Positions 889 to 42,936 of a stretch of DNA of 42,936 nucleotides are shown here, piece by piece. Under the pieces are notes generated by a model. It did not search any database. It was not told where the DNA came from and saw only the letters and a list, made by a program, of their open reading frames with translations. The stretch spans positions 1-42,936 of IMG/VR virus record IMGVR_UViG_3300032893_000117; one strand, 5' to 3'. Numbering within the stretch: position 1 is the stretch's first letter; every line of letters begins with the position of its first letter. This stretch comes from a virus. Both the position numbers and the translations under genes were made by a program.

Positions 889-901
889 AGGTCCTCCTCC
901 C

Positions 902-1366: not shown

Positions 1367-1376
1367 TTATATCTCC

Positions 1377-5184: not shown

Positions 5185-5192
5185 GATCCCTC

Positions 5193-11357: not shown

Positions 11358-11672
11358 ATGAAGAAGATGATGGTGATAGGACTGATGGCGATGGCATTGG
11401 CTGGATGCCATAAGGACCGTCCGCCGCAGAACCCAGGCATGCCGTTCCCGGCGCTAAAGGCCGGGTTCGTGTACATAGACTCGGACAGGGTGCTGGTCCC
11501 GGGCGCGACGGCCGAGAACCTCGTGAACTTGTGGGTATGCTACCTGAAGGCGAGCGCACTGGATTGCGAGTTCGCGACGCCGGCGCAAGAGCAAGTGGTC
11601 AATGACCGAGTGTACCTTGTCGGTTGTAAGAGCGGCGGGGCGACGATGGCGGAGTACAACGAGTCGGTGTAA
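11358..11672 (+). CDS. Early lipoprotein, 104 aa
   Basis: A lipoprotein signal: basic start MKKMMV, hydrophobic run, then lipobox LAGC with Cys17. The mature part (..PFPALKAGFVYIDSDRVLV..) is soluble and probably faces the periplasm or outer surface. I chose the ATG at 11358, eight bases after a perfect GGAGGAGG site, over a GTG at 11349. An early phage lipoprotein is a good candidate for superinfection exclusion or envelope remodelling, since such proteins are known in T5 (Llp) and other phages. It is not recognisable as a spanin. Confidence 0.75.
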   Translation: MKKMMVIGLMAMALAGCHKDRPPQNPGMPFPALKAGFVYIDSDRVLVPGATAENLVNLWVCYLKASALDCEFATPAQEQVVNDRVYLVGCKSGGATMAEYNESV

Positions 11673-20627: not shown

Positions 20628-21450
20628 GTTCGACACGCACTACGCCTTTCTGCTGAAGCGGGTGCTGGCGGCGAAGCCCGAGTACAACAGGAGGACCAAG
20701 ACATACGTGCGCGCGATCGACGGCGCGTTCTTCCGCATGTCGTCGTTCCCCATCCTGGGGCTGCGCGACATACGGCCGCTGTGGTCGTGCGCCGAGGCTG
20801 TGTGGTTCCTGGCGGGCCAGAACGGCGTCGAGTTCTTCCACAAGTGGGACATGCACAGTTGGGACAAGTTCGCGGGCAAGCTGGGCGAGGTGGAGTCCGC
20901 GACTGGGTTCCGGTGGCGCTACGGGTTCGGCTGCGACCAGCTCAACGTCCTCCTGGACAAGCTGAGGACGGACCCGAGCAACAGGCAGGGCGTGCTGCAG
21001 ACGTGGCACCCAGACAAGGACATGGTGAACCCGGGGCCCAACGCCCCGTGCCTGACGACGTGGCACTTCCACATCATCAACGGCAGGCTAAACGTGTCCG
21101 TGATGCAGAGATCGGGGGACTTGTACTTTGGCGTGCCGCACGACGTCCTGGGGTGCAGGCTGGTGCAGGAGTTGCTAGCCGCAGAGTTGGGTGTACCGCC
21201 AGGCAAAGTGTCATACTTGGTGTCCAACGCGCACTTGTACCAGGACCAGTGGAAGGCAGCGGAGGAGATGATCTTCAGGGAGGAAGCATGCGACAAAAGG
21301 GCAGACTATCCGATAGATTTGAACCTACAGACGAGCCATGGCACGCGGGCTCTGCGCGGGGACGCCTCGGTAGTGGAAGAGGTGCATACGCGGATAAGGA
21401 ATTTTTACAGACCATTCCCGGCAATAAAGGGGCCGTCTCTCGTAAAGTAG
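20596..21450 (+). CDS. Thymidylate-synthase-fold enzyme; Asp at the dUMP-selecting site suggests dCMP
   Basis: 284 residues with a ThyA fold: APCLTTWHFHI (catalytic Cys152), QRSGDLYFGVPHDVLG (171-186) and NAHLYQDQ (211-218; His213, Tyr215). In E. coli ThyA the corresponding stretch reads ..LPFN.., and Asn177 reads the uracil ring. Here the position is Asp183. Asp at this place characterises dCMP hydroxymethylase (T4 gp42 Asp179), and changing Asn to Asp in ThyA moves specificity toward dCMP. The second Arg of the RR phosphate pair is Gln131. So it is either a cytidylate hydroxymethylase/methylase or an unusual thymidylate synthase. The neighbouring DHFR-like gene favours a synthase that oxidises folate. 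GTG start. Confidence 0.85.
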   Translation: MTTDTSPSKTEFDTHYAFLLKRVLAAKPEYNRRTKTYVRAIDGAFFRMSSFPILGLRDIRPLWSCAEAVWFLAGQNGVEFFHKWDMHSWDKFAGKLGEVESATGFRWRYGFGCDQLNVLLDKLRTDPSNRQGVLQTWHPDKDMVNPGPNAPCLTTWHFHIINGRLNVSVMQRSGDLYFGVPHDVLGCRLVQELLAAELGVPPGKVSYLVSNAHLYQDQWKAAEEMIFREEACDKRADYPIDLNLQTSHGTRALRGDASVVEEVHTRIRNFYRPFPAIKGPSLVK

Positions 21451-21461
21451 CCGAGGTCCAC

Positions 21462-21995
21462 ATGGTAGTGTGCATGTCGCTGGACGGCTTCATAGGCCGC
21501 GCCGACGGCTCGCCACCTAACCAGGAGAAGTACGGCGGGTGGACGAGCACCGAGGACAAGGCCGAGTTCAGGAAGGAACTGGAGAAATCAGATATAGTTC
21601 TCCTGGGCCGTCGGACGTTCGCCCAGACGCCCGAGTTCGTGTGGGGGAAGAAGCCCGTGGCCATCGTGACGAGCGACCCTAACGTGGAGTCGGGCCGGTG
21701 GCTCATACCGCCGCAGTACGACGGCATGCGCCACTTTCTGGACTCCATGCACGGCGCAAGGGTCTTGCTCTGCGGCGGGTCGCGGACGTACGACTTCATG
21801 CTGAGGTGGAACTTGGTGAGCACCATGACGGTCGTCATAGAGCCGCTCCTGATGAAGCGCGGGGTCAGGCTGACGACGCCGCCACCGACGAGTGGTGGGC
21901 AGGCAGAGAACCGGTTCGTCCTTACGCGCGTGCACGTGCTCAACCCCCGTGGGACGGTGAGGCTGGACTACAGGAGGGTGAACCAATGGAAATAA
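21462..21995 (+). CDS. DHFR/RibD C-terminal-like reductase
   Basis: 177 residues: MVVCMSLDGFIGRADG near the start, ..DIVLLGRRTF.. around 45-54, VLLCGGSRTYDFML around 106-119 and ..TVVIEPLLMKRGVRL.., the dihydrofolate-reductase/RibD_C pattern with the GG nucleotide-binding turn. It would regenerate tetrahydrofolate used by a thymidylate synthase, matching its position right after the ThyA-fold gene. The long frame that extends upstream through the ThyA gene is spurious; I chose ATG 21462 where homology starts, although the ribosome site is weak. Confidence 0.8.
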   Translation: MVVCMSLDGFIGRADGSPPNQEKYGGWTSTEDKAEFRKELEKSDIVLLGRRTFAQTPEFVWGKKPVAIVTSDPNVESGRWLIPPQYDGMRHFLDSMHGARVLLCGGSRTYDFMLRWNLVSTMTVVIEPLLMKRGVRLTTPPPTSGGQAENRFVLTRVHVLNPRGTVRLDYRRVNQWK

Positions 21996-26108: not shown

Positions 26109-29021
26109 CTAAGGCACCTTCAGTAGCTTCAAGGAGGTGCCGACCTGCGCATTGTTTCCACTTACGGTAAATTCATGGTCCATCCCTATGCTGATGTAGT
26201 CCGCGTTCAGGTCCAGATTGTCGTCGTTGATGGTCAGCCGGTCCCCGATCTGGAGAGCGAAGTACGGCCGCACCGAACAGGCTGGTATGTACGAGACGGG
26301 GTTCTTGTAGTTCCCGAGTACCGCGCTGGCGATGGTGGCCGCCACGGAGGACGACACGATCCAGCTGTTCTGGATGGTGAGCTGGCGGTCCCCGTAGTTG
26401 GCTATGGATGTCGCATCGGACGCCGTCTGAATCTGCGAGGTCCGGTCGTTCTGGAACGTTTGGCCAACCACGCGTAAGTCGGTTATGGTGCCGGTGTGCG
26501 TAATCGTGATCTGGAACACGGGCAGGGTCGGGTGGATGCTAAGGCATACCCAACTGCCGGCACCGCTGGCCGCGAAGGTGACAACGAGGGCCGCTGGGTT
26601 CGCCCCGGACATGTACGATATGTCCATGCCACCGGAGATGTAAGGCGCCACCGTTATAACCTGGCCGTTGGTAACGGACAGAGGATTAGATACCGAAATT
26701 GCAACTGGAGGTATTCCGACGGTCCCCTGGTAAACGGTGTCCGTCGTATTCCCGGTTAGGATGTAGGGCTCGGCTTGAACGCTTATGTCGTTAAGTATGG
26801 CGGTGTCGCCGCCGAGGTTGTCAGCTATCTCCTGCTGGATGTCCATCATGGTGGAGTTGAAGGCTATGGTAGCTACCGAGGTTGGAGGATACTTAGGGGT
26901 ACCACCTCCAGACACCCAATAGATGGTAAGATCATCGAGAACCAAGTTAAATGTGAATGTGATGGTAACCTGTATATACCTATTAACTGGGGACATCATC
27001 TGCATCCCAAGCAAGTATGCCCAAGAACTCCAGGTGGTACCATCAGGGCTCGTTCTAGTTTGAATGTTGGTTATCGACCCACCGAAGGGTGCGGTGGTCT
27101 CGGTCAGTAAACCAAGGGAGGTCACGCTGGCACCCATGTCATAAGTAGCGGACGCCCAGGTTCCATAGTTGTAAGCCCCTATTATACTTAACGTGTCGAA
27201 CTCAATGATGCTGGACGAATAATAGGCGCTGCTAGGTTCATATACATAAAATCCGCAGTAATTTGATGTGTTATAAGAATTGTCTACCACCTGGATGATT
27301 TGTACCCCATCTAAAGTGACTGTGATCGAGCCATCAGATGCCCTAGTAATAAGGACCGCATGGGTGGAGTTGTCATATGGGAGGGTGGCCCCAGCCAAGT
27401 ATATTCCATAGGGTCCCGAAAGCGTCGTGGTAAATTTATTTAAATAGATATTTCCAGCACTTCCTCCGAACCCCGGAACAATCCTCAATAAATATCCGCT
27501 ATTCGGCCGGTGATATGAGTCCAGGCCGTACACACAAAACGCAAATCCGGCTTCCGCGTAATCCGCTCCAATATAGGAAGGCACGGTCATGTTAAATTGC
27601 CAAGTTCCTAACCCATAAGGATCACTGGTGTCCGCCCTCATAATAGAAGAAAACGCTGGTTGCCCAGAGAAGGCCTCTTGTAATTGCCCACTTGCAACGG
27701 ACCATGTCGTATTGTTGGAGGGATAGGTGCTGGATTGCCAAAAAGTTAGGTTCGGGAAGTTATCAGTTACCGTTCCATAAGTTCCGACAATGAGGTTGCC
27801 TGGTTGGGTGGAAGAGTCAAGGTGCGTAAGGGTGCCTGAGTTCCAATCAGTTTGAGACGTCCATGTATGGCTATTATTCACCGACCCGGTGTAGAACCTG
27901 AATTGGGCTATCCCGTTCTCGTCAAAATAGAACAAGGCATCTCCGGCAGCCTGGGTTAGATCACGAATTGTATCCAGTGGTGCCTCAACGTCTGTGAAAA
28001 AGTATCCGACGTTTATGCCAGTGGTGTTAAGGTTGGTCTCATACGTTGAAATGTCGGCACGGTTGAGGATGTACTGGATGGCGGTGGCTATGTCAATGTT
28101 GGACTTGAGCTTGGACGAGTCTAGCTTGTTGATCAGGATTTTCATGGAGTCCCGGCCGATCATGGTGGCGTCCCTGGTTTTCGGTTTCGGCGTCAGTCTG
28201 TCCATGTATCCTATGAATCCGTTCACGTATTCCGGCGCGAGACTGAGGTAGTTGAACCCGAACTGTACCCAGATCTGTATGTTCGGCCGAAGCTCGGTAT
28301 TGACGAAACCGGCTGAAAGCTCGGCGCTGGTTGGCGTATGACTGGGAGAGAAGAACCGGTCGTCGTTGTTCAGCTCCAGCTGGACCGTGGCAGCCATGGG
28401 GTTCGACAGCTTGAAGTCGCGCTGTCGGCTTACCCTGATGGACTTCGTACGGCTGGAGATGTCGACCTTCCGGTACCCCTCGATCTCGACCACGTCGGCC
28501 GCTCCACTCCCGGAGGTGTACACAGTCAGCCTCCACTGTGTAGCCGTTATGTCCGGGAAGTCTATGACATCTAAAGTTTCGTTAGTGGTAATTGGGGTCT
28601 GCCCTCCAGTTACACGATCCACCGTGGCCGCGAAGATTACCCAGCTCGAACCGTTGTAGTATTGGAGGTCGTAACTACTGAATGGTCGAGAGCTCAGCAT
28701 GTAAATTTTAATGCGGTTAAGGGTACGGGGTTGCGTTAAAGTCATGGTCAACGTAGCTGGTAAAGACGCCGTTGATCGCCAGGAGGACTTGCCCACGTTA
28801 TTGTCGGCATTTGCTGGCAATCCTATGTTCAACTCCGTTCGGTCACCATCAATAGCTCCGGCCGCAGGATAGTTACCCGAGCCATCCACGCTACTAGCGG
28901 CCACCGTTGTTCCGTAGGACGATGCATTGAAATAGTTGCCGAGGATCAGGTAAACTTTAGCCGCAGGTAGGTTGACGTCGGCCGCTTCGGCAGTCTGGAA
29001 GGATGAGCTGACCGGGAGCAT
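26109..29021 (-). CDS. Tail tip protein with discoidin-like and lectin-like domains
   Basis: 970 residues. Residues ~35-190 resemble an F5/8-type C (discoidin) domain: ..GNYPAAGAIDGDRTELNIG.., ..SSWRSTASLPATLTMTL.., ..RTLNRIKIYMLSSRPF.. Next comes a hub-like segment (..SIRVSRQRDFKLSNPM.., ..DRLTPKPKTRDATMIGRDS..), then a concanavalin-like jelly-roll around 430-640 (..VASGQLQEAFSGQPAFSS..), and a C-terminal hub part. The middle lectin-like part is AT-richer at the DNA level than its flanks, suggesting an inserted receptor-binding domain. It is the expected Tal/tip gene, between distal tail and lysis genes, and probably contacts the receptor. Confidence 0.75.
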   Translation of the reverse strand: MLPVSSSFQTAEAADVNLPAAKVYLILGNYFNASSYGTTVAASSVDGSGNYPAAGAIDGDRTELNIGLPANADNNVGKSSWRSTASLPATLTMTLTQPRTLNRIKIYMLSSRPFSSYDLQYYNGSSWVIFAATVDRVTGGQTPITTNETLDVIDFPDITATQWRLTVYTSGSGAADVVEIEGYRKVDISSRTKSIRVSRQRDFKLSNPMAATVQLELNNDDRFFSPSHTPTSAELSAGFVNTELRPNIQIWVQFGFNYLSLAPEYVNGFIGYMDRLTPKPKTRDATMIGRDSMKILINKLDSSKLKSNIDIATAIQYILNRADISTYETNLNTTGINVGYFFTDVEAPLDTIRDLTQAAGDALFYFDENGIAQFRFYTGSVNNSHTWTSQTDWNSGTLTHLDSSTQPGNLIVGTYGTVTDNFPNLTFWQSSTYPSNNTTWSVASGQLQEAFSGQPAFSSIMRADTSDPYGLGTWQFNMTVPSYIGADYAEAGFAFCVYGLDSYHRPNSGYLLRIVPGFGGSAGNIYLNKFTTTLSGPYGIYLAGATLPYDNSTHAVLITRASDGSITVTLDGVQIIQVVDNSYNTSNYCGFYVYEPSSAYYSSSIIEFDTLSIIGAYNYGTWASATYDMGASVTSLGLLTETTAPFGGSITNIQTRTSPDGTTWSSWAYLLGMQMMSPVNRYIQVTITFTFNLVLDDLTIYWVSGGGTPKYPPTSVATIAFNSTMMDIQQEIADNLGGDTAILNDISVQAEPYILTGNTTDTVYQGTVGIPPVAISVSNPLSVTNGQVITVAPYISGGMDISYMSGANPAALVVTFAASGAGSWVCLSIHPTLPVFQITITHTGTITDLRVVGQTFQNDRTSQIQTASDATSIANYGDRQLTIQNSWIVSSSVAATIASAVLGNYKNPVSYIPACSVRPYFALQIGDRLTINDDNLDLNADYISIGMDHEFTVSGNNAQVGTSLKLLKVP

Positions 29022-29642: not shown

Positions 29643-31142
29643 TCACCTGCTGAAGTTAATCTGCCCCATGCCGCGAATCTGCTCGACGATGGTCTGCCCT
29701 ATCTTGTTCACCATGTTCTGGTCAACGACACCCTGCACGTTCACAGTTATGGAGTTGTACATATCTCCACCACCACCTCCACCGATAGGAGGTTCGCCAC
29801 CACCGCTCATAGGCGTGAAGGTGGCCATCTCAGGACCACCCTCTCCGAACAGAGCCAGGGTCGGAGAATCGGCGAACACGGACCCACCGGTTGCGAACCC
29901 CATACCGGATAAACCTGCCGCCCCGACAGAACCTAGTGGTCCTCCCATAGCACTCATGGCAGTGAAAATGGCCCACTCGGCTATCATTTTCATGATCCAC
30001 GAAATTATCTGCTCGGCCATTTGCTGGAACATGTTTTGAAAAGCCTGTGTGAACGATTCACCCTTAACCAACATATCGGATACCATTGTACCGAAATCAG
30101 AACCTATTTTGTCGGCAGCTGTCTTCGCCTGTCTTACCTGTTCGTCTAGCTGCTTCTGTTGGTCCTTGGTCATTTTGTCTATTTGTTTATCCCAGAATTC
30201 TAATTCTTTGGACTGGGAATCTTCCATAGCCTGGGCACTGTCTTGCATCTTAGTTACATACTCATTAATGAGCATGTCCATACGCTGCTTCTGTTTGTCT
30301 AAATCGGATATAGCGGAATCGGAAAAGGCTTTATGGTCAGCCTTTAAGCTCGCTATCTTTGCGTCTAGTTCGTCATACTTAGTTTTCAATTCTCCGGTAA
30401 GGGCTACATGTTTCGTTACTGACGGGAGCATGGAATCAAAATACTGACCCAAAGATTGTGTCATACCAACCAGGGCTGTTAGAGGTTTTAACATCTCCAT
30501 AATAATGGTCTTCAAGTAGTCCATTACTTTGGCAAAGGCGGCGTGCATATCAGCGGATCGCTGCAAAGCGGCCTGCTGTTCCTGGAGGAGAGTAATCTCC
30601 TTTTGTTGCGCATCGTGCAGATTAGATTTTAAATCATTGGCTACCAACTGGTCCGCTTTTAATAAATCTGCGAGTGCCTTGTTTAAACTTCCTCCAGCCT
30701 GTTGAAATTTATTGAGTTGGTCGATCTCCTTCTGGTAGGTATCTATGGATTGTTGAGTCTGGTCGATCGATTTCTGTACCGTTTCTGATTCGTCTTTGTG
30801 GGCCGTTGACACCTTGTATACGGCGGCAGCCAATGCCACCAATATTGTTATTAAGAGGGTCAAACCGCCACTGCTAAGTCCAGCCGCAGCTTCCGCTCCC
30901 ATGAGGGCCGTGTTCATCAGGAGAACGGCCTGGCGCGTCTCACCGGCCAGCCCGATGCTCTGCATGGCCTGACCCGCGAACAGCATCAGCCCTATGTGCT
31001 GGAAGCGCTCCTGGAACCTGGCCTGGAGGTTGGTGCTGGAGGAAGTGACGCTATTGATGGCGTCCCCGGCCTTCTTGATCTCGTTGGCCGAGGCGTCCCC
31101 GCCTGTCGTTACAAGACTTATCCTAGCCTCTACATCAGGCAT
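29643..31142 (-). CDS. Tail tape measure protein
   Basis: 499 residues: a long coiled-coil, Gln/Lys-rich helical body with one hydrophobic segment near 93-112 (..GLTLLITILVALAAAVYKV..), and the usual C-terminal signature ..FATGGSVFADSPTLALFGEGGPEMA.. followed by a Gly-rich loop. The tape measure sets tail length, and a 499-residue chain would suit a rather short tail (~75 nm if fully helical). Directly downstream of the frameshifting chaperone gene, as in lambda. Central coding DNA is AT-richer than its flanks. Confidence 0.88.
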   Translation of the reverse strand: MPDVEARISLVTTGGDASANEIKKAGDAINSVTSSSTNLQARFQERFQHIGLMLFAGQAMQSIGLAGETRQAVLLMNTALMGAEAAAGLSSGGLTLLITILVALAAAVYKVSTAHKDESETVQKSIDQTQQSIDTYQKEIDQLNKFQQAGGSLNKALADLLKADQLVANDLKSNLHDAQQKEITLLQEQQAALQRSADMHAAFAKVMDYLKTIIMEMLKPLTALVGMTQSLGQYFDSMLPSVTKHVALTGELKTKYDELDAKIASLKADHKAFSDSAISDLDKQKQRMDMLINEYVTKMQDSAQAMEDSQSKELEFWDKQIDKMTKDQQKQLDEQVRQAKTAADKIGSDFGTMVSDMLVKGESFTQAFQNMFQQMAEQIISWIMKMIAEWAIFTAMSAMGGPLGSVGAAGLSGMGFATGGSVFADSPTLALFGEGGPEMATFTPMSGGGEPPIGGGGGGDMYNSITVNVQGVVDQNMVNKIGQTIVEQIRGMGQINFSR

Positions 31143-31775: not shown

Positions 31776-33083
31776 CTAGTACTGTGTTAGAACATCGTTG
31801 ACGAGAGTTACCTGAACGTCATACCCGGTACCGCCAATATCGTCTCGGCATAGACCTGTGAACGGAATCTTCAACGGACCGTTGGATGGGATAATGAGGT
31901 TCGCGCTCTTGTAGTACCACTTCGGGATGTCTATGGCCAACGAGTAGGTGACGCCTCCCTGGGTCGACGTCAGGGTCAGGTTGACATGCGCCTCGGTGCC
32001 CGCCAGGAACTTCGCGTACTGCGTCGTGTCCTCGAAGAACAGCTCCATGGACAGCTCCGGCGTGAACCCCTCGGAGTAGATGGCGTACGGCCAGATCGAC
32101 CCGTTGAGGGCGTGGTCCGCTTTGACGGCATTGCTCAGGGACAGCTTGAAGTTGTCGTACCCCGACTTCGTTACACCGTCTATCTGAACCACAGCGTTGG
32201 ACCATACGAAAGGCTTAAGCGCCGAGTACGAGGTCGACTTAGAAGTACCATCAGTCCCGTCGTACACAGTCCCGACCCACTCCGTATCCGCTTCCAGGAT
32301 GCCCTTGGCCTGGAGGTTGAGATCCAGCTTCGAGCACATCGCTCCCGCGAAGATCGGATACTTCAGAGCCTTGTCAAACCACCAGCTGTAGCTGGGCAGT
32401 TGCGACACCGCTTGCCGCGTAAACACATGGCTGGACGTCGACCCGCTCGATGGTGTGCTCGGCGCGGTAGTGCCTGAGCCATTGCTGATGTTCGTGATGT
32501 CGACCCCGCCTGTGAACCCTATAGTCGGGTAGGCAGACTTCGAGTGGTTGGCACCGGACGCGATCAGGAGGTTGTAATAATCCGTCGTCGGTTCAAGGTG
32601 GATCTTCCCCCCGACGTTCGTCGCCACCAGGGAGCACGACCCGCCTGTCGCCGATCCGAAAGCCGAATTGATAGCCGAAATCAGCGCCGTTATCGTTGCG
32701 TAAGACCCCGCAGCGATCGTCGCGACCTCCGTCAGACCATGGCTGACGTTGAATACGTCCAGCGTATCGTTGACGCCCGTCGTAATTATGAAAGATGAGG
32801 TCTGCGTATCCGAGCCGAACAAGGCCTGCAGGATCTCGCCTATATTGTCCGGCTCGACTTCCAGCTTCACCTTCATGCCGTTGAGCGTGCCGGGTCCCTG
32901 CGTGATCTTCGGGTACATGTTCGCCAGCGCCTCGATGCCCTTGGACGGCAGGGGCTCGATCATCGGCGTGAAGGCGTCCGGCGGTACGATGTTCAGGTAC
33001 CTGGTCGGAGTCGTGATCGGTGTGCCGAGCACCGACTCCTTGGCGAGCCCTGCGGCTCGCAGACGACTAACTGATATTGCCAT
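31776..33083 (-). CDS. Major tail tube protein
   Basis: 435 residues, beta-rich, preceding the tail chaperone genes, the constant position of the tube gene. It opens with the tail-tube-like phrase ..AAGLAKESVLGTPITTPTRY.., has an insert of Gly/Ser/Thr-rich and flagellin-like repeats at ~100-230 (..AAGSYATITALISAINSAFG..), and a C-terminal beta domain. Longer than typical (~150-250 residues), so probably a tube protein with an added surface domain. GGAGG ribosome site. Confidence 0.75.
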   Translation of the reverse strand: MAISVSRLRAAGLAKESVLGTPITTPTRYLNIVPPDAFTPMIEPLPSKGIEALANMYPKITQGPGTLNGMKVKLEVEPDNIGEILQALFGSDTQTSSFIITTGVNDTLDVFNVSHGLTEVATIAAGSYATITALISAINSAFGSATGGSCSLVATNVGGKIHLEPTTDYYNLLIASGANHSKSAYPTIGFTGGVDITNISNGSGTTAPSTPSSGSTSSHVFTRQAVSQLPSYSWWFDKALKYPIFAGAMCSKLDLNLQAKGILEADTEWVGTVYDGTDGTSKSTSYSALKPFVWSNAVVQIDGVTKSGYDNFKLSLSNAVKADHALNGSIWPYAIYSEGFTPELSMELFFEDTTQYAKFLAGTEAHVNLTLTSTQGGVTYSLAIDIPKWYYKSANLIIPSNGPLKIPFTGLCRDDIGGTGYDVQVTLVNDVLTQY

Positions 33084-33608: not shown

Positions 33609-34255
33609 ACCTCGCCTCCCGCGTCAACGTTGAACTCGGCGTCCATGTTCGTCACCTCGTCCTCTAGCCGTACGGCCGCCAGCCCCTCCGCGAACCTCAT
33701 CTCCTTGAAGTCCCCGCCCAGGGAGAAGTAGTCCTGGAGGATGCGCCTGATGGCGTTGACGTCCGGGTCCGACAGGAACACGACGTAGCGCTCCTTCTGC
33801 CTCGCTCCGGTCTGCCATATCACGATGTCGGCCAGGTCCGGATCTAGCGGCGTACCGAATATGGCCTGCTGCGCGTCGAAGTACTGGAACAGCGCGTCGG
33901 GGTTGATCATGGCGGCACGAAGGGCACCCGTCCGGACCAGGAGCCAGTCCGGGAACGGACCGCCGTACGATGCCTTGCCGCCCCTGGCCGTCTTCTTCGT
34001 CACCTTGGCCGTCCCCGTCTTGTGCTTCTCCTTCATGTACCCTGGAGAGAGAGGCGCCCAGAACTCCCCGAAGACGTCCGCGCCGGTCAGCTCCTTGCCG
34101 ACGGACAGCTCGAACTTCTGCTCGTTGATCTCCACCCACTCGCTGTATATCTCGTGGAACGCCGGTTCCAGGTCCGCCATGCGAGCCTGGAGCTCCGGCA
34201 GGACACCGGCGTTCGTTACGAGGACCTTGATGGTGAAGCTTACGTTCGCGGCCAT
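33605..34255 (-). CDS. Mu gpG-like virion morphogenesis / tail completion protein
   Basis: 216 residues with the pattern of the virion morphogenesis family (Phage_tail_S / Mu gpG): ..EFWAPLSPGYMKEKHKTG.., a basic loop KVTKKTARGGK, ..LLVRTGALRAAMI.., ..ADIVIWQTGARQKERYVV... These proteins complete heads or join head and tail. Coupled to both neighbours by overlaps. Confidence 0.7.
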   Translation of the reverse strand: MAANVSFTIKVLVTNAGVLPELQARMADLEPAFHEIYSEWVEINEQKFELSVGKELTGADVFGEFWAPLSPGYMKEKHKTGTAKVTKKTARGGKASYGGPFPDWLLVRTGALRAAMINPDALFQYFDAQQAIFGTPLDPDLADIVIWQTGARQKERYVVFLSDPDVNAIRRILQDYFSLGGDFKEMRFAEGLAAVRLEDEVTNMDAEFNVDAGGEV

Positions 34256-35259
34256 TATCTAATAGGCGTTATCGGGTCCCACACGATATTGACGTCCCCG
34301 TAAGCCGGAGCCTCCCTCTGTCCCTGCCTCTTGTAGAAATCGGCCTTCAAGTAGTCGCCCCTGGCGTAGGCGGCCTTGCCCAGGGCCTGGTATGCCTGGC
34401 ATACCGTCTGGACGTCCGTTCGGGCCTCGCCGCCGCTGGAGGCATACTGCTCGGCGTACTTGGACGCCCTCGCATACCAGAACTGCCCGAGGGCGTACTG
34501 GAGCATCGGCTCTATAAGGCCCTCCTGAATCGTGGTCGGATCGGTGGTACCTGCCAGGGTCATGTTGGCCGCACGGTTAAGGAACTCCGTGTACTTGGCG
34601 TCCGTGAACCACACCCAGTTGTAGTCGACGTACAGGCCGTTGGGCGGCGTCCCCTGCGGAGACGGAGCAGGAGAGATTTGAATGATGCCGTTGGTCGGGT
34701 CCAGGACCGTTATTCCGACCTGGCTCCGTGTCGTTGTCGCCACCCCGTTCGAAATGATGGAGTACCATGTGTACAGCGGGACTCCACCGGCATCCGCCAT
34801 GGGTGTCTTCTTGAGTTTGAAAAGGGTGTTGACACCGTTTAAGGGGAACGCCGGTTGGTCCGCAGCGCCCATGGTCTCCTGCCACGCCGTCCGTGAGTCC
34901 GGCATATCGTCCGCGAGCATCCGAAGGCTCTGCAGAAGGGCCGCTAGACCGCTGGAAGAGGGGCTAGAAATGGTTAAGTTGCCCTGTCCTACCGGAGCGT
35001 CCCCAGACACCGGTGACCCGCCTAGTTGGCGGTACGCCGCCCATGTGTAGGTTCCGGCTAGGGACGCGATGCCCGTCGGCACGCTCGCGAAGTAGTTACC
35101 GGTTCCGACCTGCTCGGTGGCGGCTATCGCGTAACCGGACCAGTTGGCGGGGTTGAACGTCTCAAACGCCGAGGTATTGTTGTTCCATATCTGCCCCGAG
35201 GCGTTCCATATGAACACGTATACGGTCTGACCGGTGGCGTAGACAACTTGGATCAACAT
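34255..35259 (-). CDS. Neck/connector-like protein with an N-terminal beta module
   Basis: 334 residues. The first ~100 (..SAFETFNPANWSGYAIAATE.., ..GTGNYFASVPTGIASLAGTY..) form a small beta domain found in phage surface proteins. Residues 100-210 are beta-rich, and the C-terminal ~100 are helical (..PMLQYALGQFWYARASKYAE.., ..AYQALGKAAYARGDYLKAD..), the profile of connector or adaptor proteins. It comes after the secreted cassette and before the Mu G-like gene. Function inferred from position. Confidence 0.5.
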   Translation of the reverse strand: MLIQVVYATGQTVYVFIWNASGQIWNNNTSAFETFNPANWSGYAIAATEQVGTGNYFASVPTGIASLAGTYTWAAYRQLGGSPVSGDAPVGQGNLTISSPSSSGLAALLQSLRMLADDMPDSRTAWQETMGAADQPAFPLNGVNTLFKLKKTPMADAGGVPLYTWYSIISNGVATTTRSQVGITVLDPTNGIIQISPAPSPQGTPPNGLYVDYNWVWFTDAKYTEFLNRAANMTLAGTTDPTTIQEGLIEPMLQYALGQFWYARASKYAEQYASSGGEARTDVQTVCQAYQALGKAAYARGDYLKADFYKRQGQREAPAYGDVNIVWDPITPIR

Positions 35260-35272
35260 ACACCCTCCATAC

Positions 35273-36664
35273 TCATTTGATTTGCACGTTTCCTTTCGCG
35301 GTCACCGATCCGAAAGCGAATACCGCCGGAGGCGTATACGTTTCTTGAAATTGAGTGAGCGGGAAAGTGAAGGACAGTTCATCGCCCGGATTATAGGAGG
35401 ACGACCAAGCGGTATCGGTCGTCGGATCATAGGCCGCTCCCGTGAGCCACGTCCTCACGGGCGAAACGGGATACGATGTCCATGACGAGGCGGACGAAAA
35501 TGGGAGCGTCGTATCCCACGCGACCAACGGCGGAGTTCCTACCCCATTGGTCATATTAAAATTGTGGGTAGGAACAAAAAACATGAATCCGTTGGCGTCC
35601 AACCATCCGAATTGATACCCTCCGGCATTAGGATCGACATTGGTCAGCTGGATGTATTGCCAAGCGGAACCGCTCGTAAGAGATTGGGTTGAGTCGTATT
35701 TTAACGCGACGCTCTTGGTTACGGCGGTCTGCGAAGCGCCCCAGGGTACAAGCACTAAACTGCTTCCGACTACCACGCCACCGGTGAATTCCGTCAACCC
35801 GCTTCGAATCGCTCCGGGGATGCTGGATATCGTCGTTAAATCCAGGACTTGGTAAGAAGAAGCCGACGTAAAGGACAACGTCGTATTGTAGGACCAAAAC
35901 AAACTGGAGGCGGATCCCCCGCCGGGAGCCTGGAATGGAATCCCGTACACATAGGGCGCGATATAGGCCATCGATTGCGGACCGCCGATGTTGCTTTGAA
36001 CGTTGCTCAGGTCATAACTCGTCCAAGAACTCGCGCTGGAGAAAGAATCCGCGCCGTTAAACTCGATGAATATATTCGTCTGAGTGGGAGCGAAGTAAGC
36101 GTATCCGTTAGCATAGATTCCCGAGAATCCGCCGCTGCCCGCTGTCGGCGTGATCGTCGTAGGATCGAACCACGAATAGGCCGATGGACTGTTATGGTTC
36201 GAGTGCATCGACGCTAAATTGATTTGGCCCGCCCAGGTCGTATTGTTGATGGAGCGGCCGACCATGTAGGCATAGGTATCGGACGCATCCAAAAAACCGC
36301 CTCCGAAACTCGCCGCGTTAGTGCTTCCCGCCACCGACTGCAAATTCGTCACCGTCCAATCGGATGGATTGGTAAAATTCTGCGTTCCGGCAGCCACATT
36401 GAAAACCAACAATTTCCCGTTCAAGACTTCACCAGCCGTCGTATTCCCATAAGGATAAAACAAGACTTGATTTCTGGCGGCGTCATAGTCGGCCATTTGA
36501 TAGGAGGTGCAGTTGGCCAATAACAAAGGGACGATCTGGCTGACGGAGATGGAAGGAAATCCGCGCCCGGCCCAAGCGGGAACCGTCATAAAAAACACTG
36601 AAAACCAAAGCACATGACGAATCACGGCGAGACCACGGCTCCGCAGCAGAGCGAGAGTTCTCAT
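35273..36664 (-). CDS. Secreted beta-propeller-like repeat protein, 463 aa
   Basis: Starts MRTLALLRSRGLAV with an N-terminal membrane signal (..HVLWFSVFFMTVPAWAG..) and an AWA-G cleavage site around residue 32. The mature part consists of about seven repeats of ~60-70 residues, each with a variant of F-S-S-A-S-S-W-T-S-Y-D-L and a later ..GYAYFAPT.. or ..GFMFFVPT.. strand pair, a layout typical of beta-propellers. The ATG at 36664 overlaps the expected stop of the preceding small gene (ATGA). An in-frame ATG at 36754 would add a non-signal leader and reads through a G run, so it is less likely. The final residues ..AFGSVTAKGNVQIK echo the end of the small upstream protein. Confidence 0.65.
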   Translation of the reverse strand: MRTLALLRSRGLAVIRHVLWFSVFFMTVPAWAGRGFPSISVSQIVPLLLANCTSYQMADYDAARNQVLFYPYGNTTAGEVLNGKLLVFNVAAGTQNFTNPSDWTVTNLQSVAGSTNAASFGGGFLDASDTYAYMVGRSINNTTWAGQINLASMHSNHNSPSAYSWFDPTTITPTAGSGGFSGIYANGYAYFAPTQTNIFIEFNGADSFSSASSWTSYDLSNVQSNIGGPQSMAYIAPYVYGIPFQAPGGGSASSLFWSYNTTLSFTSASSYQVLDLTTISSIPGAIRSGLTEFTGGVVVGSSLVLVPWGASQTAVTKSVALKYDSTQSLTSGSAWQYIQLTNVDPNAGGYQFGWLDANGFMFFVPTHNFNMTNGVGTPPLVAWDTTLPFSSASSWTSYPVSPVRTWLTGAAYDPTTDTAWSSSYNPGDELSFTFPLTQFQETYTPPAVFAFGSVTAKGNVQIK

Positions 36665-36875
36665 TGCACAGTCACGGTCCCCCCTGAACATCACGGTCCC
36701 CAGGATTTGGACGGTTCCAAACGGGTCGGCCTGTCCGGAGTTGGCGTTGATCATATAAGCGCTTTCATCGACCCATTCCCAGGTGTTCGTGTCCGACGGA
36801 TTGGTTGACGGCGAACGTTCCGGGGAATGCCTGCCATGGAAGAAATACGAATAGCCCGAAAATTAATTTTCTCAT
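36661..36875 (-). pseudogene. Small secreted protein, disrupted by two apparent frameshifts
   Basis: The ATG at 36875 overlaps the stop of the large fibre gene (ATGA) and begins a signal peptide MRKLIFGLFVFLPWQ.. with a FPGTFA site. That frame stops at 36766. A +1 shift near 36798-36807 continues as NPSDTNTWEWVDESAYMINA.. and then, at a run of six G (36679-36684, C on the plus strand), a further one-base shift leads to GTVTVQ and a TGA overlapping the next ATG. Restoring both gives a coherent protein of ~72 residues with coupled starts and stops on both sides, so the ancestral gene is evident. The changes could be real decay or assembly errors. Confidence 0.6.
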
Positions 36876-39800
36876 TTTGTCCAAGGTCCTCCGCATGTTA
36901 ATAAAGAGATATCGGGCGGTTGAACGAGCGTCGTTGCCAGGCTCAGAGGACTGGGAGGCGTCATGCTCGTGCTGGTCTGATAATATCCGCTGAAGTTGAC
37001 CTGAGTCGCGCCGTATATCGGGACGTACTTGAAAGTCGTGTTGTTGGCCTGGAGGGCCAGAAGCAGAGATCCTTGCGGGACGAAAAATGGAGTGGTCAAC
37101 AAATTCTGGAAGCTCGTGGTCGCGTCCGATACCGGACCCGTGGATTCGATGATGTTCCCGAACGCGTCGTACGTTATTAAATTCATGCAGCCGCCGGTTG
37201 TGACGCCCGGAGAGCAACTTCCACCGCCGCTCGTGCCAATGCTGAAACGATATCCGCAAACCATGGCCGGGCTGGGATTATAGACGCCGATCGATATCGT
37301 GCTGCTGGACGCGCTCAACGCCACAGCCGTCTGCGCGGTTAATAAATTCCCGATAATAGCCGGGTTCTGGTAACAGAGCCCGCGCCAGGAATTGACGCCG
37401 TCCGACACCAATTTATCGCACCCCTGCGAAGGCGCGAAGAAGGTCAACGTTCCGGTCCCGTTTATCACGTCGCCGGGGTTGGCCATGAGGACGGTCGGCT
37501 GCGTGCTCGAATCGACCTTCCAAATGGTGATCTGATGCCCAGGGCAGGCCGAGGCCGCCGGGAGCGTGACCGTGGACCACACGACGCTGGATGGGCCCGC
37601 CGCGCTGGACAACAGGACTGAATCGGTACAGATTGCCGTGTAATTCCCCGTCTTAATGGGGCTTGTGCTGAAGGTAAGAGCCACGACAGATACCGTACCA
37701 ACTATCGTTTGCGAAGACGAAAAGGTATTGGCCTGGTTGATGTATGCCGCACTCGACACCTGCGCCGTCAATGCGTTGGCGCTGGAGAGGATTACTCCAG
37801 TCGCGAGGCCGACGTTGTAAACGCCCGTATTCAATGCTGACAAACTGATGGCGTTCCCCTGCAACGTGACAGATGAAGGGTTCAAACTCATAAACGCCGT
37901 TGATGCACCTATCAGTTGTATGTTAAATGTGCTGCTATCGCCGACGATCGCTGTCGTCGGACTAGACGCAGGGACACCAAAACCACTGACGGAACCAGTC
38001 GCTACAGCGAGCGTTGAAGCACCTCCTCCGCCGCTCGTGGGCACCGGACCTCCGTCGACAAGAGTCGTCGTGCCGCTCCACACCGCTAAATGGCTCGTAG
38101 TATTATTGGCTGGCGCACTAGATGACACGGCGTAATAAGTGTAACCGCCTCTCCCAAAATCAATTTCCCCGTCACCGGGGGATGTTGTAGTAACCGATGC
38201 TGCCGTTATTCCATACGATACACCCAGACCTCCAGCGGACGTAATCGTTTGTGACGACGAGAATGTGTTCGCTAAGTTAACGTATGCCGCAGTGGATATT
38301 TGCGCCGTTACCGCATTCAGGTTGGATAAGATGGTCCCGGTCGCTTGCCCTACGCCATACGCCAAAGTCCCCGTCGAAACGCCGACGGCCTTGATGAGCG
38401 ATAGATTGGTTCCTGTTGCTTGTCCGACATTATATGCCAAAGTTCCAGTGGCCTGTCCAACGTTATAAGCCAAAGTTCCCGTTGTCTGTTGAGTGCTGTA
38501 TAAGGCAGCGTTCATCGTGCCCGTGGCCGTTCCTATACTGGATATCGATCCAAGCATAGTTCCCGTTGCTTGTCCAACATTGTAGGCCAGGGTTCCCGTC
38601 GCCTGGCTCACGTTATAGACTGCCGTATTGATCGTTCCCGTTGCCGCGCCAATACTGCTGACGTTCCCGAGGATCGATCCTGTCGCTATTCCCAAATTGT
38701 AAACGCCGGTATTGAGCGCCGAGAGGCTTACGGCGTTCCCCTGCAAAGTGACGGACGATCCGTTTGTGCGAACGAATCCAGTAGACGTTCCAGTAAGCTG
38801 AACCATGAACGTACTGCTATCGAAAACAATCGCAGAAGTCGGGCTGGACGCCGGGACGCCGAACCCGCCTACGGAACCAGTCGCTACAGCGAGCGTTGAA
38901 GCACCTCCTCCGCCGCCACCGGTTGCAAGGGCCTGGCAGCCATATAGGCCATTAGTCCAGGACAACGCATGGCTGGTATCTCCGCAATTCGTCAGGCCCG
39001 CGCCCGTCATGGTCCCAACATTTAGGTTGTAGGTCACTCCGACACCACCAGGCGCGGTGATGGTTTGGGATGACGAGAACGTGTTGGCTTTGTTGATGTA
39101 GGCCGCCGTCGACACCTGGGCCGTCAATGCGTTGACGCTGGATAGGATCGTCCCAGTGGCCTGTTGGGTATTGTATAGCGCCGTGTTGATCGTGCCGGTG
39201 GCAGACCCCACATTACTAATTGAAATAGATAGTGCCCCGGTCGCCTGCTGGACGCTATAGAGCGACGAGCTCAGATTCGCGATGACCGTTGTCGCGCTCG
39301 ATGCGATAATCTTTCCGACACTATTCGTCCCGGTGATAAAGGAGCTCGTGAGGCTGGAAACGTCGACGGTCGTGAACGTCGCGCCGCTGATGGAATAGAC
39401 GCCGCCCGTGTTATCGACCCAGAAAGCGTCTTGACGGTTGCCGACTCCTAAATTCGCGCTGTAGTCTATGGCCTTGCCGGAATTGTTGCCGTATATCTGG
39501 AACATCGTTCTGCCGTTCTGCGAGCTGTCGTACAGGTAGAGGTCGGCGTTCGGGCTCGCGCTGTAATTTCCCCCGTAATTGGAATTTCCTCCCACACTCA
39601 TCATGGTTCCGCCGCCCTGAGGGGCAGATGCAGTCATGAGAACCATGGATGGGTAAGGACCCGCGCCCGCACCCCACCATGTGAACCCCTGACTAAGAAT
39701 ATCGTAATAGAATCCCCCTAGCAAGAGTTGATCGGGTCCGTCCAGCCAACCCAACCCCAGTCTCGGTTCATTCGTGTAGCTCGGATACCAAAAATTAATT

Positions 39801-40219
39801 AAGTTCGTCTGTGAGAAATCGGTCCCCCCAATCAACATCAATCTGTCGTTAGTCGTGGACAGGTTGGTACTTGTACCAAGCTGCACTTCGGCTGAGGATG
39901 CACTGTAGCTAAAGTTACCAGGATCACTAGTAACAGACCCAGAACTTGATCCGTAAGCAACTCCGATAGGAGGTATAGTTGAACCGGCCCCACATCCCGA
40001 CCCTGTGCAGGTCCCGCTGATCTGGATATCCTTTACCTTCAGTTGCAGTGTAGTGGTGTCGACCGATACCGTAGAACTACTAAGAGGGATCCCATTGGAG
40101 CTACCATATACAACACTACCGGCTGGCAATACGATTAACGGAGCATAGTTCCCCGTAACAGCCCTGGAGGAGGATGCACTCCATAGGAGGACCAGGGCCG
40201 TTAGGAGAAACTTTTTCAT
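36872..40219 (-). CDS. Secreted repeat-rich fibre protein, 1115 aa
   Basis: N-terminal signal (MKKFLLTALVLLWS then ASSSRA, cleavage about residue 20), then a beta-rich head (..GSSNGIPLSSSTVSVD..) and a long region of QATGTLAYNVG/TGTI..LNALTAQVS-type 11-residue repeats, probably coiled-coil or beta-helix shaft. Three larger modules recur (..AQVSTAAYINKANTFSSSQ.. in varied forms), with Gly-rich joints. The C-terminus (after ~940) has a different, Cys-containing domain. Fibre-like by repeats and context, but an N-terminal Sec signal is unusual for a virion fibre. The next gene starts in its stop codon. Confidence 0.75.
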   Translation of the reverse strand: MKKFLLTALVLLWSASSSRAVTGNYAPLIVLPAGSVVYGSSNGIPLSSSTVSVDTTTLQLKVKDIQISGTCTGSGCGAGSTIPPIGVAYGSSSGSVTSDPGNFSYSASSAEVQLGTSTNLSTTNDRLMLIGGTDFSQTNLINFWYPSYTNEPRLGLGWLDGPDQLLLGGFYYDILSQGFTWWGAGAGPYPSMVLMTASAPQGGGTMMSVGGNSNYGGNYSASPNADLYLYDSSQNGRTMFQIYGNNSGKAIDYSANLGVGNRQDAFWVDNTGGVYSISGATFTTVDVSSLTSSFITGTNSVGKIIASSATTVIANLSSSLYSVQQATGALSISISNVGSATGTINTALYNTQQATGTILSSVNALTAQVSTAAYINKANTFSSSQTITAPGGVGVTYNLNVGTMTGAGLTNCGDTSHALSWTNGLYGCQALATGGGGGGASTLAVATGSVGGFGVPASSPTSAIVFDSSTFMVQLTGTSTGFVRTNGSSVTLQGNAVSLSALNTGVYNLGIATGSILGNVSSIGAATGTINTAVYNVSQATGTLAYNVGQATGTMLGSISSIGTATGTMNAALYSTQQTTGTLAYNVGQATGTLAYNVGQATGTNLSLIKAVGVSTGTLAYGVGQATGTILSNLNAVTAQISTAAYVNLANTFSSSQTITSAGGLGVSYGITAASVTTTSPGDGEIDFGRGGYTYYAVSSSAPANNTTSHLAVWSGTTTLVDGGPVPTSGGGGASTLAVATGSVSGFGVPASSPTTAIVGDSSTFNIQLIGASTAFMSLNPSSVTLQGNAISLSALNTGVYNVGLATGVILSSANALTAQVSSAAYINQANTFSSSQTIVGTVSVVALTFSTSPIKTGNYTAICTDSVLLSSAAGPSSVVWSTVTLPAASACPGHQITIWKVDSSTQPTVLMANPGDVINGTGTLTFFAPSQGCDKLVSDGVNSWRGLCYQNPAIIGNLLTAQTAVALSASSSTISIGVYNPSPAMVCGYRFSIGTSGGGSCSPGVTTGGCMNLITYDAFGNIIESTGPVSDATTSFQNLLTTPFFVPQGSLLLALQANNTTFKYVPIYGATQVNFSGYYQTSTSMTPPSPLSLATTLVQPPDISLLTCGGPWTK
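37989..38034. repeat. 46-bp direct repeat in the fibre gene, copy A
   Basis: Identical to 38871-38916, starting acggaaccagtc, encoding part of the GGGGASTLAVATGSV module. It is a possible site of recombination that could change shaft length. Confidence 0.9.
38871..38916. repeat. 46-bp direct repeat in the fibre gene, copy B
   Basis: Identical to 37989-38034, 882 bp apart (a multiple of three), so a deletion or duplication between the copies would stay in frame. Confidence 0.9.
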
Positions 40220-40635
40220 AGGTAGTCCGCTAGCTCCATTAACTTATTCTCCGGGAACATGGGGAAGTACTTGATCCCGTGCTCCTTGAACAGCCTTCGC
40301 TTCGCCTCGACCTGCTTGCGGTCCCAGTCCGTCGGGTTCGCGAACTGGTCGATGGCGAGGTTCTTCGTCGGGAAGAAGAACCGCACCTTCATCTGCTCGC
40401 CGGTGACGCTCCACTTCAACCATGGCCACGTCTTGTCCACCCGGTAGAAGGTCTCGTTCATGAACCGGCACAGCTTGTTGGACTGCTTTGACGCGCGGTC
40501 CCTGGCCCTCTGCATGTCCGCTGCCGTCTCCGCGAGCTCTGCGGCCGTCTCCGGGTCCATGTTCGCCGGACCCACCCATCTGGCCACCGGCCTCGCTGGG
40601 TCGTTCTCGGATGCTCTAACTTGGGGTTTTCCCAT
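40216..40635 (-). CDS. Cytosolic protein within the secreted cassette, 139 aa
   Basis: Soluble, helical and basic (..ELAETAADMQRARDRASKQ.., ..KLCRFMNETFYRVDKTW.., ..KVRFFFPTKNLAIDQF..), no signal sequence. AAAGGAGGA precedes the ATG. It separates the two largest secreted proteins and could be their chaperone or an unrelated late gene. No family recognised. Confidence 0.6.
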   Translation of the reverse strand: MGKPQVRASENDPARPVARWVGPANMDPETAAELAETAADMQRARDRASKQSNKLCRFMNETFYRVDKTWPWLKWSVTGEQMKVRFFFPTKNLAIDQFANPTDWDRKQVEAKRRLFKEHGIKYFPMFPENKLMELADYL

Positions 40636-40647
40636 CGTCGTCCTCCT

Positions 40648-42354
40648 TTACCATTTGAACCGTTTGCCGTACCCGTACACGGACACCTTCTCCTGGCCTG
40701 TCAACGGCCCCGCGATCCACAGCCTCAGATAGTGCGTGTTGATCGTACCGAAGTCCCAGAACGAGGTCCCAGGGCTCCAAGGGGTGGCGACGTTGGTCGC
40801 GGCCACCGTCACGTTTGCGGCGGTCACCGTCATGGTCGACCAGTTGACCCCGTCGTCCGACTGCTGCCAGGAGAAGTTGATAGCTCCCGTAACCGGCAAC
40901 GGATTCAACGTGAAGTTGTGCGGACCCGTTGTCGAGGACGAGGTCAGGGTTATGTAGCTACCGGCGATGGCGCCGGTCGATGTGAGCGCCAGCTGTACGT
41001 CGTTGGCGTCCAAGGCGATGGCGTAGTACGTGGTCCCGTAAACAAGGGGCGTGATTCCGACGCCTGACCCGGTGCTCCAATACACTTCCGCGCCGGACGC
41101 CAAACCGTGGGAAGGGATGTAGAAGGTCGAGGACGATATGAACTCCGCTGTGTTTACACCTCCGAAGAACTGCGCCGCGCCGACCGTAAGTGCCGGCGTG
41201 CTCGTCCAGAGGTAGAAGACCGTCCCGGTCCCGACGGCAGTCGACGTCGCGTAGATGACCCCGGAATTCCCTGGGACGGAGCTGACGACGATGCTCGAAA
41301 GGCCGGTCGTGTTGGCGATGGCGCTGGATATGTTCAACGCCGTGGCGTTCACGCTGGAACCTACTGCCCAGACGCCAGGCCCCTGCGTCGTGCCCTGCGT
41401 GATCGTGAAAGTCCCGATGACGATGAACGCCGCGTTCTGCCCTCCCAGGAACGTCGCGGAGCTGACAGCCAGGACCGTTGGCGAACTGGATACAAGCGTG
41501 TACGTGTTGCAGTACGTCCCGACGCTCGAGCACTTTATATTGGTCGTCACGTAGTCGGATGCCGTCGATGCCGTGAATCCAAAGTTCGAGTTGTTGATGG
41601 CATTCTGGATGGACACGCACGTGTTGCTGGAGTAGTTGGTATCTGCCGTCCAGTCCGTGCCCTGCGTGTACATCCTACCGTTCAGCGCGAAGTACGTGTT
41701 GTCCAGGCCTCCCTTGAAGTTCGCACCTCCGCTGACGTACATGGCCGTTGGAGTACTGGAGTTAACAGCCCAAGCGTTAGCGTACGACCCGGCGACGTGC
41801 GCCGTCAGAGTAATGGTCGAACCTGAAATACTGGAGTTGACAGATACATCCACGGCTCCGGCCGTGAAGCCTGTGATCGCGTTGGCAAGGTTCAAGGCCG
41901 TCTGAGCAGTAGACGAGGCGACCTGAAAATCTTTGTTACCGCACAGGCTGCCGGATGATACCCAAGAGATGAACAGGCATTTCCCAACGAGGTCCGTGGA
42001 GCTGATGACGACAGTTTCCGTCGCCTGTACAGGAGCGAGACTACTCGTGGACTTGACGACCAGTGATGACGTACCAGCTACGCCTACTAGGGATGTCGTC
42101 GACACGACCGTGATCGTGTCCGTAGATACTTTACCATCGTTGAACGTCGTGCTCGACGCCATTACTGTCGCGCTAGAATATCCGAGGCTCATAGACAGGG
42201 TGTCCGCGCCGTAGGCGCTCATGTCGATGGTGTACGACTGAGTGGTCGTGACGATCGTGTTCACAAGCGGTTGATTGTAAGCAATTTCCATGGCTCTGGC
42301 CGGGAGAGCCAGGGCGAGGATGGCCCATGCAGCCACTGTTAAAATCTTTTTCAT
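40648..42354 (-). CDS. Secreted repeat protein, 568 aa, directly after the major capsid gene
   Basis: Signal peptide MKKILTVAAWAILALALPARA-M (cleavage near residue 21) with AAAGGAGG in front. The mature part is Ser/Thr-rich beta sequence with three repeats of ~75-90 residues ending in FLGG, FKGG or FFGG: each has a Q-x-T-A-x-N-I/L-A-x-A-I helix-like segment and a ..SSTPTALYVS..GG closing strand. Resembles domains found in adhesins or fibre modules. The last ~120 residues differ (..ISWQQSDDGVNWST.. style, ..YLRLWIAGPLTGQEKVSVYG..). Probably exported or used as a head fibre; the signal peptide favours export. Confidence 0.7.
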   Translation of the reverse strand: MKKILTVAAWAILALALPARAMEIAYNQPLVNTIVTTTQSYTIDMSAYGADTLSMSLGYSSATVMASSTTFNDGKVSTDTITVVSTTSLVGVAGTSSLVVKSTSSLAPVQATETVVISSTDLVGKCLFISWVSSGSLCGNKDFQVASSTAQTALNLANAITGFTAGAVDVSVNSSISGSTITLTAHVAGSYANAWAVNSSTPTAMYVSGGANFKGGLDNTYFALNGRMYTQGTDWTADTNYSSNTCVSIQNAINNSNFGFTASTASDYVTTNIKCSSVGTYCNTYTLVSSSPTVLAVSSATFLGGQNAAFIVIGTFTITQGTTQGPGVWAVGSSVNATALNISSAIANTTGLSSIVVSSVPGNSGVIYATSTAVGTGTVFYLWTSTPALTVGAAQFFGGVNTAEFISSSTFYIPSHGLASGAEVYWSTGSGVGITPLVYGTTYYAIALDANDVQLALTSTGAIAGSYITLTSSSTTGPHNFTLNPLPVTGAINFSWQQSDDGVNWSTMTVTAANVTVAATNVATPWSPGTSFWDFGTINTHYLRLWIAGPLTGQEKVSVYGYGKRFKW

Positions 42355-42435: not shown

Positions 42436-42936
42436 TTACACCGTGCCGTCGTTGCCGAGGACCCAGAAACGGGGCTCGAGCCAGTCGAAGTTCCACCGCG
42501 ATCGCGCGCGGAACCGGAACTCGTCTGCACTAAACGCCACACCGCTCTGTGGGTTCTCCTGAACGACTTCGAGGGGATCCCGGATTTGACCGACCAATCC
42601 CTTGCCAGCCATGCCAAGGGCCCAGGCCTTCTGCGGTAGGAACAGGCTGATGACGAGGTTGTACATCCCGTCCATCACGTTCCGCGCATAGGTCGTGCCG
42701 ATGGTTGAAGCAGCACCTGTCCCACTAACTTTCTGCGGTCCCGTTGTAGGATACCATTCGGAGTTCAGCAGGGTGCGGGCGACGAACTTCAGCGCCGATC
42801 CGCACGCCAGGGTGTTCGGCTTAACCAGCATCTTGTTGCCCAGCTTATCCAGTTGCTGCATCAACTGCAGGTCTGCCGCCTGGAGCGGTCCAATGTCGAA
42901 GGCAACCGGGGACAACTTGTTCCAGCCGCCACCGAC
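42436..42936 (-). CDS. Major capsid protein, C-terminal part (joins 1..888 around the circle)
   Basis: The frame from the contig end (42934-42936 is a full codon) runs to a TAA at 42436 and continues the capsid frame at position 1 after removing the 127-bp overlap. Contains ..LVKPNTLACGSALKFVART.. and ends ..WLEPRFWVLGNDGTV. The unit following is the secreted cassette, after a gap of 80 bases. Confidence 0.8.
   Translation of the reverse strand, partial: VGGGWNKLSPVAFDIGPLQAADLQLMQQLDKLGNKMLVKPNTLACGSALKFVARTLLNSEWYPTTGPQKVSGTGAASTIGTTYARNVMDGMYNLVISLFLPQKAWALGMAGKGLVGQIRDPLEVVQENPQSGVAFSADEFRFRARSRWNFDWLEPRFWVLGNDGTV
42810..42936. repeat. Terminal direct repeat, right copy
   Basis: Identical to bases 1-127; see the left copy. 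The circle closes inside the major capsid gene. Confidence 0.95.

Follow-up and report, generated by a model that had tools for sequence, protein, structure and literature searches.

The usual view is that tailed phages fold and assemble their virion and fibre proteins in the cytoplasm. What, then, is the role of a run of genes for proteins with Sec-type signal peptides that lies directly behind the capsid gene of such a phage? The question is raised by IMG/VR record IMGVR_UViG_3300032893_000117, analysed here over its whole length of 42,936 nt (the window), in which a cassette of this kind occupies positions 35273-42354 of the minus strand, flanked by the capsid gene on one side and connector genes on the other.

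Genome organization and the cassette genes

The window phage is a tailed phage with a circular contig, as marked by an identical 127-bp repeat at both ends. The minus strand carries genes for the small (8943-9314) and large (7414-8946) terminase subunits, portal (5193-7121), a head morphogenesis protein (3940-4941), a protease-like protein (1377-2900) and a decoration-like protein (902-1366), followed by the major capsid gene, recognized by a weak match to the PHROG major head family phrog_371. The latter gene spans the circular junction from the window start and ends within 42436..42936, its stop at 42436 placing it directly upstream of the cassette. On the other side of the cassette, the head-tail series resumes with a 334-aa protein (34255..35259, minus strand), which is assigned by position and has no family match; beyond it lie connector-like and tail-type genes, including a tail gene (31776-33083), a tape-measure gene (29643-31142) and, at 26109-29021, minor-tail genes that encode an F5/8 C domain. 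The replication genes, encoding PolA, Toprim, PD-DEXK, ThyA and dCMP deaminase, are on the plus strand, where a DHFR/RibD-like reductase, encoded by the 3′ portion of the ORF listed at 20781-21995, adjoins thymidylate synthase. Also on the replication side, a 104-aa protein (11358-11672, plus strand) with 4 cysteines in all bears a clear lipoprotein signal, MKKMMVIGLMAMALAG^C, and is a candidate superinfection-exclusion lipoprotein. A chimeric contig was considered and rejected, the contig being circular and its late genes continuous and co-directional.

The coordinates and gene order reported by the first-pass annotation are correct: after the capsid gene come genes for proteins of 568, 139 and 1115 aa, a broken short ORF and a gene for a 463-aa protein, all on the minus strand. 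The 568-aa protein (40648..42354; signal peptide MKKILTVAAWAILALALPARA^MEIAY) contains one domain repeated three times internally and a fibre-type module at the C-terminus, the C-terminal part giving weak matches to tail-fibre and baseplate PHROGs, baseplate wedges among them (E 1e-3 to 1e-2), and a 70-aa stretch matching a Pelagibacter phage tail protein (E 1e-3). It is followed by the soluble 139-aa protein (40216..40635), which belongs to no known family and, as had been noted, is embedded among the signal-peptide genes without a signal peptide of its own. The 1115-aa protein (36872..40219; MKKFLLTALVLLWSASSSRA^VTGNY) is fibre-like, with three ‘YINxANTFSSSQT’ repeats and many ‘QATGT’ repeats, and has no Pfam or phage match. 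What had been described as a disrupted protein of about 72 aa (36661-36875) is in fact an intact 36-aa ORF (36768..36875) with an intact signal peptide, MRKLIFGLFVFLPWQAFPGTFA^VNQ, whereas the remainder, down to 36661, is protein-like sequence in two other frames, so that this is either a decayed gene or the product of assembly errors. The 463-aa protein (35273..36664; MRTLALLRSRGLAVIRHVLWFSVFFMTVPAWA^GRG) shows blade-like repeats by eye and is a suspected beta-propeller; AF2 run on the lone sequence, without relatives, reached a pLDDT of 31. In its C-terminal pattern, GTVxxxGxVxxxGxV / GSVTAKGNVQIK, the broken gene seemingly resembles the 463-aa protein.

Three ATGA overlaps (40216-40219, 36872-36875 and 36661-36664) and strong Shine-Dalgarno sequences in front of the 568-aa and 139-aa genes bear out the earlier view that the genes are translationally coupled, and thus support the cassette as one late unit. 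No excess of promoter-like sites was found within the cassette region, and neither the window nor seven other cassette-bearing contigs have a tyrosine integrase; both make lysogenic conversion less likely, and it was rejected as a first choice.

Signal peptides of the cassette proteins

N-termini were evaluated with a custom-made score for the n-, h- and c-regions, calibrated on five well-known Escherichia coli signals and on shuffled sequences. The 568-aa, 1115-aa and 463-aa proteins and the 36-aa ORF all display a basic n-region, a hydrophobic core and an A-x-A-type cleavage site, scoring 8.5 (ARA^M), 8.0 (SRA^V), 7.2 (AWA^G) and 7.2 (TFA^V), respectively. By comparison, no flanking head or tail gene scores above 4.5 (1.1 for the 334-aa protein), and 0.57% of the open start contexts in the window, the cassette genes included, reach a score of 7. 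Of the four signal-peptide proteins originally proposed, three are large intact genes and one is a broken ORF. In other viral contigs, 44 of 1539 ORFs (~3%) reach 7, several of these being false internal starts in terminases. At this rate, the chance of finding signal peptides in 4 of 6 neighbouring genes is ~1e-5, or, leaving out the broken ORF, 2e-4 for 3 of 5, both values being post hoc; on these grounds, we rejected chance N-termini as the source of the clustering.

Judging from these sequences, the large cassette proteins of the window are very probably exported through Sec. None of the cassette signal peptides, which end in ARA, SRA, TFA and AWA without a Cys, carries a lipobox, and no recognized outer-membrane or surface-anchor domain was detected in the cassette proteins, so that no step past the inner membrane is explained.

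Recurrence of the layout in uncultured phages

Sequence searches yielded no relatives of the cassette or the capsid: none in a pattern search of IMG/VR with the 568-aa, 463-aa, 334-aa and capsid proteins, none in phage records with the 1115-aa, 463-aa, portal, capsid and 970-aa tail proteins, and none of the cassette or capsid in plasmids or, by sequence, in the PDB. A ‘Y..GTDWTA’ motif used in a viral scan retrieved only unrelated proteins, and a host guess of Elusimicrobiota-like bacteria, based on the ‘ANTFSSSQT’ repeats, was abandoned, as GTDB genomes gave 3 matches, about the number expected by chance, with no phylum signal. The window terminase has many relatives, all at 49% identity or less, and in some of the corresponding contigs, signal-peptide genes adjoin the capsid gene (L020, L026) or the terminase gene (L057). 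Contigs L103-L118 were collected by a viral scan with one signal-peptide protein (L024/L026/L066).

These comparisons revealed a recurring architecture in uncultured phages, in which a capsid gene and an optional cement gene are followed by a run of signal-peptide genes and then by tail genes. The cassette-bearing phages are mainly podoviruses of the BPP-1/epsilon15 type, with 2-8 signal-peptide genes at the capsid-side position. Contigs L103-L117 have the BPP-1/epsilon15-type capsid (phrog_212), cement (phrog_427) and portal (phrog_332), as tested on L116, and carry a run between cement and tail genes that is, for example, eight genes long in L110, five or six genes long in both L114 and L116, and four genes long in L107. 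In L028 and L020, a run occupies the same capsid-side position; in L023, a different capsid gene is directly followed by two signal-peptide genes; and in L118, which has a different terminase and portal, signal-peptide genes lie among the head genes. Given these differences in capsid, terminase and portal, the layout is present in several phage types, to which the window phage belongs by architecture and not by sequence. The search for the same cassette in other phage contigs, as called for by the first-pass annotation, recovered the layout but no detectable sequence relationship between the window cassette and the others.

Isolated relatives of these podoviruses (BPP-1, phiV10, RapA, Ab31, 66FD and Shamal) have the cement gene followed by tail genes, with no run of signal-peptide genes in between. 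In the metagenomic BPP-1-type phage vir555 (L123, BK063671.1), one signal-peptide-like gene follows the cement gene. This phage is labelled with a methanogen host, but its capsid and cement genes resemble those of proteobacterial phages, so that the label looks doubtful.

Several features of these loci are worth recording in their own right. The eight genes of L110 are consecutive within 5.4 kb (359-5745); one encodes a LamG lectin, and a Tat-like signal is also present among them. Tat-like N-termini (SRRSFVLG, NRRSFVHAG) also occur in or beside the cassettes of L105 (13681-13863) and L118 (13601-16225), so these cassettes may, from such motifs, use a second export route. A sulfotransferase-like gene (PHRSGTT motif, identified by eye) follows a signal-peptide gene in the late region of L020 (18883-19398). 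A soluble protein of 160-180 aa, marked by ‘MARWRL...HYLNV’ and with no known family and no match in cultured phages, is found inside or after most of the L107-L117 cassettes (e.g., L116 14102-14632); the soluble 139-aa protein of the window holds a comparable position, without similarity to it.

Character and cysteine parity of the signal-peptide proteins

Several signal-peptide proteins of the comparison cassettes have tailspike, tail-fibre or lectin character: one in L110 contains a LamG lectin domain (E 7.5e-21), one in L028 matches the tail-fibre family phrog_4201 (E 1.6e-35), and those at L114 12277 and L117 424 have, by eye, a tailspike beta-helix-like sequence. A small protein of the signal-peptide family is jelly-roll-like in a model with pLDDT 68, for which Foldseek retrieved only a generic jelly-roll in the PDB (E 2e-4, TM 0.3-0.4) and, at TM 0.62, uncharacterized proteins of uncultured phages. 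No enzyme family was recognized in any signal-peptide protein tested, and nothing enzymatic in the window cassette.

The capsid-side signal-peptide family was chosen because three members had signal peptides, and further members were found by similarity, often by a match restricted to the mature part (residues 23-215), which leaves out the signal peptide. All 12 members examined, down to ~35% identity, have a scored signal peptide, the letters of which vary, with predicted cleavage before Q(V/I)N in most and a Shine-Dalgarno-like stretch preceding most. All 12 also have exactly two invariant cysteines, C58 and C189.

An even number of cysteines is a recognized, typical but not absolute mark of exported proteins oxidized by DsbA (PMC7678975). 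Among the mature signal-peptide proteins of the comparison cassettes, 34 have an even and 3 an odd number of cysteines, and 4 have none, versus 62 even and 75 odd for genes without signal peptides in the same contigs (Fisher p = 1.5e-7); the loci were chosen for their signal-peptide genes and not for cysteines, and the 34:3 count includes several related members of the capsid-side family. With one count per family over all contigs, the ratio is 32:9 for signal-peptide families (p = 4e-4) and 367:435 for the others. These counts argue that the signal-peptide proteins of the comparison cassettes are probably exported and disulfide-bonded. In L057, the version of a fibre domain with a signal peptide has 4 cysteines; its relatives without signal peptides in isolated phages have 0-2. 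In the window, the mature parts contain 12 (1115 aa), 5 (568 aa) and 1 (463 aa) cysteines, a mixed pattern that is only suggestive and does not support every protein individually.

A proposed role for the cassette and its alternatives

The occurrence of this layout in several unrelated uncultured phages suggests that the proteins leave the infected cell via the host secretion machinery. We propose, with a probability of about 0.5, that the cassette encodes late, Sec-exported accessory adhesins or receptor blockers, fibre-, lectin- or tailspike-like, which would fold in the periplasm and act at the cell surface or upon lysis. Under this scenario, the set would be expressed late and exported by the host Sec machinery, the step best grounded in the sequences; periplasmic folding and disulfide formation would follow, as is well supported in comparable cassettes and less clear in the window. 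By the time of lysis at the latest, the products would have arrived at the cell surface or in the medium. There, they might occupy receptors or surface glycans of the dying cell, its debris and neighbouring cells, thereby reducing superinfection and loss of progeny, or, alternatively, condition the surface for the phage. Counting against this proposal are the mixed cysteine counts in the window, its cassette's lack of detectable sequence relationship to the others and the unexplained passage past the inner membrane. A more general formulation, which we hold somewhat more tentatively, is that several uncultured lineages have, beside the capsid gene, a late cassette dedicated to export. Its disulfide-bonded tailspike-, fibre- or lectin-like products would pass through Sec and mature in the periplasm, to be either fitted to virions only after lysis or deployed as a set of secreted adhesins. 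The capsid-side position favours the former variant; the ordinary tailspikes next to the cassettes and the lack of precedent for virion attachment favour the latter.

The most serious competitor, although less likely in our estimation, is that the products are virion parts matured outside the cytoplasm, which would be exported, oxidized and assembled in the periplasm and, once lysis brings the compartments together, be joined to capsids or tails. Such products could be head fibres or extra spikes unable to fold in the reducing cytoplasm. The location of the cassettes directly behind the capsid and cement genes fits this possibility, as do their tailspike-, fibre- and jelly-roll-like content and the existence, in phage MED4-184, of a relative of a signal-peptide protein domain that lacks a signal peptide and is encoded between the capsid and head-tail adaptor genes. 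To our knowledge, however, no phage tail or head fibre is assembled via the periplasm, and ordinary tailspike genes without signal peptides adjoin the cassettes (L105 13869, L107 13345). Considerably less probable is the release of free enzymes or matrix-binding proteins, such as depolymerases, that would remove or alter the exopolysaccharide surrounding the cell as it lyses: the beta-helix-like proteins and LamG domains described above would suit such a function, but none of the signal-peptide proteins tested shows a recognizable enzyme family. Least plausible of all, we find the notion that the N-termini are hydrophobic tags on ordinary virion proteins, or that the cassette results from assembly error or decay. 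One ORF is indeed broken, but the n-, h- and c-regions are all present, signal peptides persist throughout the capsid-side family, cysteine parity points the same way, and the contig is circular, with uninterrupted, co-directional late genes.

The first-pass proposal of an exported system is supported in part: export is very probable and the cassette forms one late unit, comparable cassettes showing conserved signal peptides and paired cysteines; rather than being a one-off, the layout recurs in other uncultured phages. If true, the export-cassette reading would amount to a compartment-split assembly or secretion strategy that has not been described for tailed phages; cassettes of this kind turned up nowhere in a limited search of the literature. 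Should exported, cysteine-paired, fibre-like proteins indeed be encoded as a recurrent block by the capsid gene, some phages would rely on host secretion and oxidation for their adhesins, which points either to virions assembled outside the cytoplasm or to an infection with a secreted arm. For annotators, it would be a warning against treating such genes as plain tail fibres or host contamination.

Relationship to known systems

Phage genes with signal sequences are not new: lambda Lom and Bor, T5 Llp and Cor are phage-encoded proteins directed to the host envelope, and lom lies among tail genes. These are, however, single small barrels or lipoproteins, whereas the cassette is a run of large fibre- or lectin-like proteins beside the capsid gene, with no Pfam match to the Lom/Ail outer-membrane barrel and with neither the lipobox nor the Cys at +1 of Llp- and Cor-type lipoproteins. 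BPP-1/epsilon15/phiV10-type phages (Rauchvirus, Uetakevirus) have capsid, cement and portal families in common with the comparison contigs but, in the isolates inspected, differ by the missing run after the cement gene. CPAG_00047 of Prochlorococcus phage MED4-184, a domain relative of the C-terminus of the L057 signal-peptide protein, is encoded directly behind the capsid gene and before the head-tail adaptor genes, but is a single domain with 1 Cys and no signal peptide.

In kind, the closest known counterpart is the family of mosaic adhesive trimeric (MAT) fibres of Bdellovibrio bacteriovorus, exported adhesins that combine a signal peptide with a phage-fibre-like body (PMC10769870). In these, a conserved ~130-aa beta-rich domain comes right after the signal peptide, and 13 of the 21 members have a C-terminal S74 domain (PMC10769870). 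The MAT genes are chromosomal genes of a predatory bacterium, whereas the cassette belongs to a phage late operon; the S74 domain has no Pfam match in the window cassette proteins, and the MAT N-terminal domain was not recognized in the cassette proteins in an analysis made without a MAT profile. The two nevertheless resemble each other in that a signal peptide is followed by phage-tail-fibre-like sequence in large, mosaic proteins encoded several per genome, and the same combination of signal peptide and fibre-like body is found in the window, as seen in the signal-peptide scores, the fibre-like repeats and the weak PHROG fibre matches.
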